A DNA stretch of 64,000 nucleotides, taken from the NCBI GenBank assembly GCA_947652735.1, contig CANTEG010000001.1, forward strand, positions 62,001-126,000, in the 5' to 3' direction. The position numbers and the translations under genes are program-made. Each line of letters starts with the position of its first letter. Within the stretch, counting starts at the first letter, position 1. The notes beneath the pieces were generated by a model. That model saw only the letters and a program-made list of their open reading frames with translations, had not been told where the DNA came from and ran no database searches. This DNA comes from an uncultured Lachnospiraceae bacterium (GTDB lineage: Bacteria > Bacillota > Clostridia > Lachnospirales > Lachnospiraceae). Below, in pieces: positions 25,343-28,692 of this stretch.

Positions 25343-26899
25343 CTATCTCTCATCAATGATATCTATATCGCCAACATCACATATAAGCTTTGGAAGTATA
25401 ACGTATGTATTGGCATGATACATATGTCTTCGGCTCTGGATAATGTGTATATATGAGTCGCGGCTGTGATACGAAAGTAAATCCCTTACCTCCAGATATG
25501 ACATATCCTCATACTCAATACCAAGCAGACCACCCAGTCTTATTACTATACCCATAACAAGCCTTACATCATCAACGAATTCCCGCATAATTTTTTTCTC
25601 ACTCTCTACGGAATTCAATATAAATTCTGCAAGAAGCTCAGGTGCCAAATCTATTTCTGCCTGCTCCAAAGCTTTTTTTATTTCATCTGTGGAAATTTTA
25701 TCGGATGCTTCCTCATCGCCAAAAGGCATATCCCACATGCCTCTGTTACCTCGTGCATTCATCCTTATATTAAATATTCCCTCATACCGCTCTGCCCTTT
25801 TCACGTTCAGCCACATTTCCATGCTTAATTTATAAAGCATTTCCCTTGTGTCCTTATCACCTGATTCAAGTGCTTCACAGTATCCCTTAGAAATATTAAC
25901 ACATCTTTCCTGATACATAAGTGCAGGAACAACATAATTTCTGATTGCCACAACAAGCTTTTCCACATATCTGTTAAGCTTCATTGAATTACTCTCCGAA
26001 AATGGTTCGCTTGCATAAATCTTTTCCCTAAGCTTTTTCATTTTTTCAAGCCCCTGATTATATTTACCAGTCATGAAGCTGTAATTTTCTACAACACTTA
26101 CAGTCTGGTTTTTCAGTGCTTCCGTAATCTCGGTGATATCTTCATCCGTAAAACCATATTCCTTTAAAGCAATCAAACGCTCTGCCGTGTCTGCCGCATA
26201 TGAGTCAAAAAGTACACTTTTCTCAAAGGTTTCGCCTCTGCTTTTGTTGTCCTTAACATACTGCTCATAATAATTTTCCAGCTTATATTTTGTCATTATC
26301 CTAAGCCCCACTGGCATAAGTCCTAAGAACATGTTATTTAACGACGTATACGGCTTATTTCCTATTCTGATAAACAACTCATTTTCATTTCCCTCATATC
26401 CCATACAGGTTATGACGTCATTCCACCCGCCTGTATCAATAAACTCCTTCAATAAAGAAAATTCAAGGGGTTTCGGATTATTTCCCAAAAGCCTGAAAAG
26501 ATTCAAATATGCACCATCAGACAACATATGATGCGTATCCAAATAAATACACTTTGCGATTGCTTTTGTATCAATAAATTCCTTGTCACTCATAACCCTG
26601 GGGACTTCCGATATCTCGTCCAGCTTTTCAGCATGTAGTATTTTTACCTCGTCATCCTCAATTGTGAAGTCAATATCAAGTGCTTCCCAGTCACCGTGAA
26701 GCCCCTCCAGTTCTTTCACCGACTGAATCAACTGAAAAAACTCACCGTCCAAAAATTCTCTTGATACATTGTGGGCAATCCATCTGCAATTTTCAAATTC
26801 CTTAGCATCAACATCTGCCATACCCTGCCTGATATAGTTTATAACATAATATGGTCTGTTGTGCGTTAAATCTCTTGTACGTACATTTCCCGATATCAC
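25343..26899 (-). CDS. PEP-synthase/PPDK-like protein lacking the ATP-grasp head and catalytic-His tail
   Basis: 518 residues. The first 100 residues (RTRDLTHNRPYYVINY, then HGDWEALDIDFTIEDDEVKI) resemble the end of the ATP-binding domain of PEP synthases and rifampicin phosphotransferases, just before the usual LQxRP motif. The middle (FRLLGNNPKPLEFSLLKEF, then IRIGNKPYTSLNNMFLGLM) resembles the helical linker of the same enzymes. The N-terminal ATP-grasp lobe and the C-terminal swivelling His domain are absent. The start is GTG with AGAGGT seven bases upstream, 14 bases after the HAD stop, so the gene is truncated compared with the family but well translated. The similarity is by eye and moderately sure. 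Function unknown. Confidence 0.6.
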   Translation of the reverse strand: MISGNVRTRDLTHNRPYYVINYIRQGMADVDAKEFENCRWIAHNVSREFLDGEFFQLIQSVKELEGLHGDWEALDIDFTIEDDEVKILHAEKLDEISEVPRVMSDKEFIDTKAIAKCIYLDTHHMLSDGAYLNLFRLLGNNPKPLEFSLLKEFIDTGGWNDVITCMGYEGNENELFIRIGNKPYTSLNNMFLGLMPVGLRIMTKYKLENYYEQYVKDNKSRGETFEKSVLFDSYAADTAERLIALKEYGFTDEDITEITEALKNQTVSVVENYSFMTGKYNQGLEKMKKLREKIYASEPFSESNSMKLNRYVEKLVVAIRNYVVPALMYQERCVNISKGYCEALESGDKDTREMLYKLSMEMWLNVKRAERYEGIFNIRMNARGNRGMWDMPFGDEEASDKISTDEIKKALEQAEIDLAPELLAEFILNSVESEKKIMREFVDDVRLVMGIVIRLGGLLGIEYEDMSYLEVRDLLSYHSRDSYIHIIQSRRHMYHANTYVILPKLICDVGDIDIIDER

Positions 26900-27784: not shown

Positions 27785-27813
27785 TTGAAGTTTTAGAAGA
27801 TATGTGTTACAAT
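27785..27813 (+). promoter_or_regulatory. Promoter of the plus-strand RlmH-like gene
   Basis: TTGAAG (27785-27790), 17 bases, then TACAAT (27808-27813) with an extended -10 TGT just ahead. It excludes the upstream GTG at 27804 as start and leaves about 32 bases of leader before ATG 27852. Confidence 0.7.
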
Positions 27814-27851: not shown

Positions 27852-28253
27852 ATGGAAATAATAATACATCTTTCCGGCAGACGTTTAGATACGGATTTTC
27901 AGTCTGCGGCAAATGAATATATCAAACGAGTATCTCCATTTTGCAGGATTAAACTTGCATTTCACAAAAAGCTTGATGGGATCTCCCCAAAGCAGGGTAC
28001 ATATGTTATAAACATAAATCCTGATGCCACTCTCATTGACTCACCATGTCTTGCCTCTGAAATAAACCGAATATGCGTAAACGGTTTTTCAAAAATTGAA
28101 ATTTTCGTGTCAAACACCTTTTGCCATGAAAATGCCGACAGTTCATATGCCCTTTCACGTCTTCATATGGATGAAGACCTTGCATGTGTCTGCCTGACAG
28201 AGCAAATTTACAGGGCATTCACAATCTTAAACAATATTACCTATCACAAATAA
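27852..28253 (+). CDS. RlmH-family paralogue with degenerate SAM-binding loop but intact C-terminal tail
   Basis: 133 residues from the ATG at 27852 (AGGG about nine bases upstream). It aligns with the SPOUT methyltransferase RlmH: N-terminal strand MEIIIHLSGRR with a helix ending in EYIKRVSPFCRIKL, a middle strand TYVININPD, and the C-terminal TEQIYRAFTILNNITYHK. That tail is nearly identical to the canonical EQxYRAxxI...YHK. It is shorter than the usual 159 residues because the segment between residues 35 and 50 is reduced. The glycine-rich loop FVIGGxxGL is replaced by FVSNTFCHEN, so SAM binding is doubtful. Its 3' end overlaps by 17 bases the convergent gene that keeps that loop. May be a pseudo-enzyme partner. 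Confidence 0.75.
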   Translation: MEIIIHLSGRRLDTDFQSAANEYIKRVSPFCRIKLAFHKKLDGISPKQGTYVININPDATLIDSPCLASEINRICVNGFSKIEIFVSNTFCHENADSSYALSRLHMDEDLACVCLTEQIYRAFTILNNITYHK

Positions 28254-28692
28254 AATCATACAGTCGTTCCAACAGCATAACCCTCATAAGCTGATGCGGA
28301 AATGTCATAGGCGAAAAGCTAAGCTTATAATCTGCACGTTTGATAACCTGTTCCGATAGTCCGAGAGACCCGCCTATTATAAATGTAATACAATCCGTTC
28401 TCTTTGCCTTGTTAAATATCCCCCGAAATGATCCCTGTTCTCCTGCCATGTTCCCGTCTATGCACAGTGCAACAACGAAGTCCGTGTTTTTTATTTTTTC
28501 CAGTATACGCCTGCCCTCTGTATCTTTGATTTTTTCAAACAGAGCTTCCTTTGCATTCTGCGGTATCGGCTCGTCAGGAATTTCAATCAGGTTAATATTT
28601 GTAACCGTTTTTATCTTTTTGACATACCAATCTATTTTTTCCCTGTAATATTCTTCTTTTACGGAACCTACTACAATTAAATTTATGAACAT
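28237..28692 (-). CDS. rlmH: 23S rRNA (pseudouridine-1915-N3)-methyltransferase RlmH-type, C-terminal tail truncated
   Basis: 151 residues; the canonical enzyme has 159. The start INLIVVGSVKEEYYREKI, the IEIPDEPIPQNA segment, the SAM-binding trefoil-knot loop FIIGGSLGLSEQV and LSFSPMTFPHQLMRVMLLE are all well conserved. After LLERLYDF the sequence ends ICDR, so the usual YRAxxIxxGxxYHK tail, which contributes to the active site, is missing. The convergent neighbour has exactly that tail but lacks the glycine loop. RlmH works as a homodimer with a composite active site, so the two products may form a heterodimer. That is inference. The catalytic competence of this subunit alone is in doubt. 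Confidence 0.85.
   Translation of the reverse strand: MFINLIVVGSVKEEYYREKIDWYVKKIKTVTNINLIEIPDEPIPQNAKEALFEKIKDTEGRRILEKIKNTDFVVALCIDGNMAGEQGSFRGIFNKAKRTDCITFIIGGSLGLSEQVIKRADYKLSFSPMTFPHQLMRVMLLERLYDFICDR

Follow-up and report, generated by a model that had tools for sequence, protein, structure and literature searches.

In a 64,000-nucleotide stretch of DNA from an uncultured Lachnospiraceae bacterium (assembly GCA_947652735.1, contig CANTEG010000001.1, positions 62,001 to 126,000 of the forward strand; hereafter the window), two convergent genes that each code for an incomplete copy of RlmH very probably specify the two halves of one obligate heterodimeric enzyme, the N3-methyltransferase of pseudouridine-1915 in 23S rRNA. 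We call the plus-strand protein T (RlmH-T, for tail; 133 residues, 27852..28253) and the minus-strand protein S (RlmH-S, for S-adenosylmethionine, SAM; 151 residues, 28237..28692). Judged from sequence, S would bind SAM in its knot, and T, a paralogue without a SAM site, would keep the helices of the dimer interface, the basic residues that contact RNA and the catalytic tail at the C-terminus, lending this tail to the S site. The site of the Escherichia coli homodimer is already composite: according to the available part of Koh et al. 2017 (PMC5430550), monomer A provides the SAM pocket with GGPEG 103-107, K11, K42 and R43, monomer B provides R25, R26, R142, R154 and the tail, and mutants at E138, Y152, H153 and R154 (including Y152F, H153F and R154A) have no detectable activity. 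In the window these two roles would thus be carried by two genes rather than by two copies of one.

Both proteins match the Pfam RlmH family PF02590 above its cut-off of 27 bits, T with 59 bits and S with 131.4 bits over profile positions 1-142 of 154, and because both are incomplete copies it is expected that neither (T 47.9, S 158.4) reaches the best NCBIfam RlmH equivalog cut-off of 172 bits. T ends in ...EQIYRAFTILNNITYHK, with the codons of its Tyr-His-Lys (YHK) tail (E. coli Y152 H153 R154) at 28242..28250 on the plus strand, carries the partner-side basic pair Lys25-Arg26 (E. coli R25 R26) at 27924..27929 on the same strand and lacks a GGxxG loop. S has the FIIGGSLGLS stretch, whose GGSLGL codons (28357..28374, minus strand) correspond to the glycine-rich SAM loop (E. 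coli GGPEG 103-107), and it ends in ...LLERLYDFICDR, before any YHK tail; its AlphaFold2 model is predicted with a mean local confidence (pLDDT) of 94.5 and a predicted TM-score of 0.90. An earlier note on this DNA had described this complementary loss, with the tail kept and the SAM loop gone on the plus strand and the reverse on the minus strand, as well as a tail-to-tail overlap of 17 bases, and translation bears it out on all these counts. The overlap occupies 28237..28253 on both strands, and since the last S codons lie antisense to the conserved YHK codons of T, the S end is constrained. Likewise, in several other convergent pairs (e.g. G093, G131, G1039) the S end falls in the antisense of the T tail. 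We place the start of T at ATG 27852 (stop 28253), as this methionine is invariant in an alignment of 25 T rows; an alternative 149-residue frame beginning with GTG at 27804 exists.

Residue by residue, the losses follow the monomer-A/monomer-B assignment of Koh et al., at least as far as the available part of that paper sets it out. Our counts are based on an alignment of distinct sequences (178 full-length RlmH, 62 S and 66 T; E. coli numbering) which motif-based typing had divided into 175 full-length, 68 T, 67 S and three '?' rows. Hand correction re-typed L312, L156 and L309 as full-length and L263 as S, and dropped L068 and L320 (cut by a contig end), L083 (two pieces), L084, L151 and L178. 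Among T, K25, R26, Y141, R142, Y152, H153 and K154 are each present in 66/66 sequences, positions 42/43 are deleted in all, and the six most frequent states at positions 128 and 129 include neither proline nor histidine; the glycine-loop motif is absent from T by definition, as its absence was used for typing. In S it is G103, G107, P128 and H129 that are each kept in 62/62 and G104 in 60/62, the Y-H-K/R tail is missing from all 62 C-termini, and the partner-side residues have thinned out to 23/62 for K25 (with arginine in nine more), 13/62 for R26 and 15/62 for R142. Two of the dropped rows, the acidobacterial records L151 and L178, are RlmH-like proteins with altered tails (YPR, YQK), the former also with an altered glycine loop, and were assigned to neither S nor T.

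T is also reduced in a manner compatible with dimer formation. Helices alpha2 and alpha4 (our numbering), which lie on the solvent side in RlmH (PMC5430550, available part), are missing from T, as reflected by a median length of 13 residues for the alpha2 stretch compared to 34 in S and full-length proteins, and the interface helices alpha1, alpha3 and alpha5 are kept. Interface residues 122, 125 and 127 are hydrophobic in 66, 64 and 62 of the 66 T, respectively. As for the substrate, the target loop, helix 69 (H69), is intact in all four of the other S+T genomes checked.

The earlier note had tied its heterodimer proposal to two further expectations, that no separate full-length rlmH accompanies the pair and that the plus-strand gene is conserved in relatives, and the genomes agree with both. 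Apart from S and T, no third PF02590 match was found in the source genome (2.77 Mb in 40 contigs, 100% complete). T is conserved within the genus, where S and T occur together in 30 of 37 genomes (source included), and in others outside it; five genus members (G007, G012, G018, G026, G032) have a single full-length RlmH instead, and the two genomes with no match are incomplete (79% and 64%). Since the same complementary losses recur in 30/37 genus genomes and beyond the genus, the pair is not a product of chance. S and T are convergent neighbours in 29 of the 30 genus pairs and sit on two contigs in G023. In G009 a second T gene (L119, G009:C48) lies on a small contig besides a normal convergent pair, possibly through binning admixture; it counts among the 66 T, and was left out of the tree and of the substitution analysis.

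Censuses at higher rank extend this co-occurrence. Across the order (395 genomes, each at least 95% complete; only best places listed), an RlmH match was found in 376 genomes; on inspection, S+T is present in at least 16 genomes from ten genus codes and five family codes, T only in one (G086), and full-length RlmH, among the matches listed, in the others, including 20 with weaker single matches (G290, G326, G063, G051 and 16 more) which on re-reading all span 1-154 or 2-154. Not counted as pairs were G289 and G397, whose extra piece lies at a contig end, G309 and G311, whose second hit scores 18 bits, G062, with two full-length copies of which one is interrupted by a stop, and G129 with its three overlapping pieces. 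The T profile was also run on a class sample (393 genomes) and a phylum sample (398 genomes), both of at least 90% completeness and with best matches listed (in the phylum up to an E-value of 1e-20); T is among these matches in 10 and 6 genomes, respectively, the source included each time. The two samples together add 14 new T genomes, 13 with S and one, G577, with T alone at a contig end. Seven T-bearing genomes are named. Six of them have S+T, namely Lutispora saccharofermentans (identical with G632), Youngiibacter fragilis, Anaerostipes sp. MSJ-23, Bacillota CSSed162cmA_249, Lachnospiraceae RGIG4480 and Clostridiaceae SRR11784281_bin.66, and the seventh, Paenibacillus alkaliterrae, has T with a full-length RlmH. 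Taking all searches together, T occurs in at least 65 genomes and a tail-less S stands alongside it in 62 of the 65, and in no census did the matches listed contain a genome with S but without T. S+T pairs are spread over at least 15 family codes and also occur in named genomes that have no code, and they stay together despite varied gene arrangement: convergent neighbours are commonest, but S and T are also co-directional neighbours (G560, G726, G495, G668, G851), lie 4 to 46 kb apart (G808, G045, G317, G632, G505, G460) or more than 400 kb apart (G057, G070), or are found on different draft contigs (G085, G094, G528, G807, G023).

The ratio of nonsynonymous to synonymous substitutions (dN/dS) is 0.04-0.28 in 19 S and 18 T comparisons (out of 21 species pairs, dS being saturated in the rest), so that both genes are under purifying selection. 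This speaks against the view that S and T are decaying remnants of an RlmH function on its way out. Such a view could appeal to the fact that each of them lacks essential parts and that rlmH can be lost, given that 19 of the 395 nearly complete order genomes have no match, four of them in genus code g115 and seven in family code f5, a pattern which suggests lineage-wide loss there. However, open frames are kept in both genes, the catalytic residues of T are invariant and the same complementary losses are found in at least 15 coded families; hence simple decay, which the dN/dS values and the conservation had already led us to think unlikely, is to our minds highly improbable. Somewhat less so, albeit still improbable, is a scenario in which S works alone as an RlmH that needs no tail, with T as a regulator or as an accessory paralogue that binds RNA. 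That S is better conserved than T in most dN/dS pairs, keeps its SAM loop and has E138 in 57/62 cases would fit; yet a regulator would not need the tail residues that are essential in E. coli (PMC5430550, available part) and that T keeps in 66/66 sequences, and the matches listed hold no tail-less S without T. T might also belong to another complex or act on another RNA and travel with S merely as a mobile hitch-hiker at rlmH 3' ends. These ends are known insertion sites of the staphylococcal cassette chromosome (SCC) and the Enterococcus cassette chromosome (ECC) (PMC6222049, available part), and one genome, G806 (Paenibacillus alkaliterrae), combines T with a full-length RlmH. We regard this option as quite improbable.

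The heterodimer reading has to accommodate some observations that weigh against it, and G806 is one of these. Its T stretch (L153/L299) has a G+C content of 0.38-0.40 compared to 0.485 at the rlmH locus, and possible explanations are contamination, a T borne on an island, or a T that is not needed. A large restriction-type gene, HsdR-like by eye, lies near T in that genome. G086 and G577 show T without S (both are drafts, of about 250 and 220 contigs). Moreover, two residues do not partition as the model would have it, E138 being kept in 57/62 S next to 65/66 T and G103 remaining in 23/66 T; at interface position 74 no more than 12 of the 66 T have a hydrophobic residue; and a pattern search with up to two mismatches did not find H69 in the draft assembly of the source.

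How an RlmH can come to be split is visible in two genomes, G317 (family code f1) and L. saccharofermentans G632 (f42), where insertion of an integrative element makes the split. S and T are co-directional there and 14-15 kb apart. Directly 3' of S, G317 encodes a 705-residue serine recombinase with Resolvase, Recombinase and Zn-ribbon domains, followed in order by the type I restriction-modification proteins HsdR, HsdM and HsdS, by a tyrosine integrase, by proteins with DUF6602 and with RNase H / ParB_N domains, and by T; the same order is seen in G632 for its relatives of the recombinase, the three Hsd proteins, the integrase and the RNase H protein, and aligned blocks above 250 bp are 84.8-90.0% identical between the two despite hosts of different families. 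A third genome, G505 (f43), has a T block of 88.6-92.4% identity and a different interior, with no relative of the G317 recombinase found. Common to all three is GTGATTTACYGAATACATGACTCC after S, directly where the EP codons (ER in G632) end, and the stop that follows at once upon ...EP in G317 and ...ER in G632 leaves the rlmH frame unrestored in cis. Beyond T, G317 and G632 continue with GAGTCATGTATTCRGTAATACACGGTGARCC and then with the host's own Tyr-His-Lys-stop codons; in G505 the right end is present and recognisable YHK codons are absent. The left and right attachment sites (attL, attR) delimit elements of 15,657 bp in G317 and 15,934 bp in G632, attR carrying the displaced EPYHK codons in both, and when the G317 flanks are joined the resulting empty site reads ...IINKEPYHK-stop. 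As the insertion point lies before the YHK codons, the host tail codons are stranded at the far end and T brings a tail of its own. Between T and the right att site of G317 (L132:18112-18450) there is a short array whose repeats have diverged around GTGCC cores and of which only the start is common to G632.

These elements share with SCC the insertion into the rlmH 3' end with attL and attR, but not a ccrAB or ccrC recombinase: the closest relative is CcrC with 111.1 (G317) and 113.5 bits (G632), ahead of CcrB at 97 bits, all far below the NCBIfam cut-off of 900. We refer to the recombinase as Ccr-like. In our model such an element would insert just before the YHK codons of rlmH so that the host protein loses its tail, the element-borne T would give the tail back in trans, and later the resident gene would erode in its other tail-side residues and the element would disappear, so that S and T remain, the state seen in the window. 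Extrapolating from the two visible cases, we consider the window pair probably to be such a settled, element-free descendant. The S proteins can be ranked in a series of erosion: S of G317, G632, G505 and G1182 keep all five of K25, R26, E138, Y141 and R142, and their C-termini lie at the YHK position or immediately before it; among the remainder of the 62 S, three keep four of these residues, nine keep three and 46 keep two or fewer.

Related elements are present in other genomes. G481, which shares the genus code of G632, has an intact RlmH ending in YHR; the left-end sequence TACATGACTCCAAAT comes immediately after it, together with a recombinase that has 65% identity to the G317 enzyme; the full-length RlmH is the sole match to the T profile among those listed. 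The G481 element is without T, and its left end carries the YHR-stop codons and keeps RlmH whole, which may be read as repair of the tail in cis. G662 carries a relative of the G317 element (L352, L372; recombinase 98% identical) away from rlmH and has a full-length RlmH; the matched element DNA stops before T and a right end was not found. In two other genomes (L016, L255) a more distant serine recombinase runs into an intact rlmH 3' end. Near the full-length rlmH of G473 (L374) there is an att-like right end with extra YHK codons, perhaps the remnant of a lost element. Searched with the G317 recombinase at E-values up to 1e-60, 321 class genomes gave two matches, G481 and G662, in a sample whose matches exclude G317, G632 and G505. 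A relaxed att motif is present at the examined loci of G317, G632, G505, G662, G481 and G473, and also, perhaps by chance, at L153, L202 and L346; it occurs at no other S gene among the loci examined. Two att patterns had no match in the viral_contigs collection, in which T has one relative of 26% identity, and the T of G317 used as query retrieved 12 plasmid and 20 phage records, all below 60% identity.

Whether integration caused the split elsewhere as well is less clear, and here several findings count against our scenario. The window locus yielded no att motif, and a search at an E-value of 1e-3 in stretches of 4-20 kb from 17 other S+T genomes turned up no relative of the G317 recombinase, so that an element origin of those pairs is something that we infer. 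The phylogenies, too, come with caveats, both having been built under LG+G4 with no mixture model, with long T branches and, in the careful tree, bootstrap support that has not settled. One may thus accept the heterodimer and still argue that T arose by duplication in a host and was captured by elements later, so that integration was not the cause in most lineages; the missing recombinase relatives, the unrooted T tree and a commonest arrangement (convergent) that differs from that of the elements would all be in keeping with this. We find such an origin possible but doubtful. In a quick tree (139 rows, unrooted) T proteins form one clade with a Shimodaira-Hasegawa-like approximate likelihood ratio support of 99, and in a careful tree (69 rows, built without T and without the tail columns) a single S clade is rejected (approximately unbiased test, p=0.0007), with nine label changes needed. 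S of G317 groups with full-length RlmH of its own genus, and S of G1039 and G1150 with those of their own family, which fits arrival of T followed by local loss of the tail. S of G1182 ends ...INKP, at or beside the same place as the element-cut S. In G1039 and G1150 the genes upstream of S have their counterparts upstream of the full-length rlmH of G1134, a correspondence that stops at rlmH. A bolder generalization of the insertion model would be that a class of elements breaks a housekeeping enzyme within its active site and brings along a half-enzyme that rebuilds the site in trans as an obligate heterodimer, that the host comes to need this subunit from the element, that erosion of the resident gene works as a one-way ratchet and the pair outlives the element, and that this has been repeated across Bacillota; to this we give only slightly better than an even chance.

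Compared to known RlmH (YbeA, OrfX) proteins of the SPOUT superfamily (PF02590; 5twj, 1ns5, 4fak, 1to0), which are encoded by one gene and form homodimers with two SAM sites, all parts of the active site are present here, spread over two proteins that each keep one of the two roles. The likeness to SCCmec and ECC, as far as the available part of PMC6222049 describes them, lies in insertion into the 3' end of rlmH by way of serine recombinases and in the dyad symmetry of the att sites. In SCC and ECC a TATCATAA motif is preserved in these sites, which we read as keeping the tail codons in place, much like the putative cis repair in G481; in G317 and G632, by contrast, the left end encodes a stop and the tail comes in trans on T. 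Enzymes composed of two diverged, related subunits are also known from the tRNA deaminase ADAT2/3 and from trypanosome S-adenosylmethionine decarboxylase with its prozyme. Going by partial accounts of these, they are eukaryotic, while S/T would be a bacterial SPOUT methyltransferase whose subunits have lost opposite halves of the active site, with a break that, in two genomes, coincides with an integration site. Open-licence literature, seen mostly at title level, yielded no heterodimeric RlmH and no rlmH-inserting element with a trans-acting tail subunit; the available part of PMC1829167 raises a heterodimer of yeast COG2106 only as a possibility, and the available text of a SPOUT review (PMC9508554) does not contain the word heterodimer. 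RlmH and cassettes that target rlmH are known, so what would be categorically new under the bolder generalization is the dependence of a host on a tail subunit provided in trans.

Should S and T be confirmed as partners, they would amount to a natural separation-of-function experiment on a knotted methyltransferase, in which SAM binding and the catalytic tail have been assigned to different genes. They would lend independent support to the composite active site that E. coli mutants had suggested, and a dimer with a single active site would then have to be sufficient. They would also offer a rare view of how an obligate heteromer originates, namely by an insertion which removes the tail in one step and brings the partner with it, not by slow drift alone, with young (G317, G632, G505) and old stages both still visible. 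This would suggest a second way to tolerate elements that target a needed gene, complementation in trans instead of repair in cis. For genome annotation it follows that genomes with S+T only may be on record with a truncated or duplicated rlmH.

One argument of the earlier note has to be given up. The strong extended -10 promoter that it saw before the plus-strand gene, TTGAAG-17-TACAAT with TG before the -10 (27785..27813, plus strand), matches in 9 of 12 positions and is not above chance, five such sites being found compared to 5.1 in shuffled sequence; as the count equals the shuffle expectation, the promoter argument falls. In the window the pair is flanked by genes for a haloacid dehalogenase (HAD) hydrolase and a sodium:solute symporter, and beside the HAD hydrolase gene lies that of a 518-residue protein (25346-26899) with no Pfam match at an E-value of 1e-4. 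Synteny here is not shared by G026, G032, G012 and G018, the four full-length members that were compared, and is common to the window and the S+T member G028.
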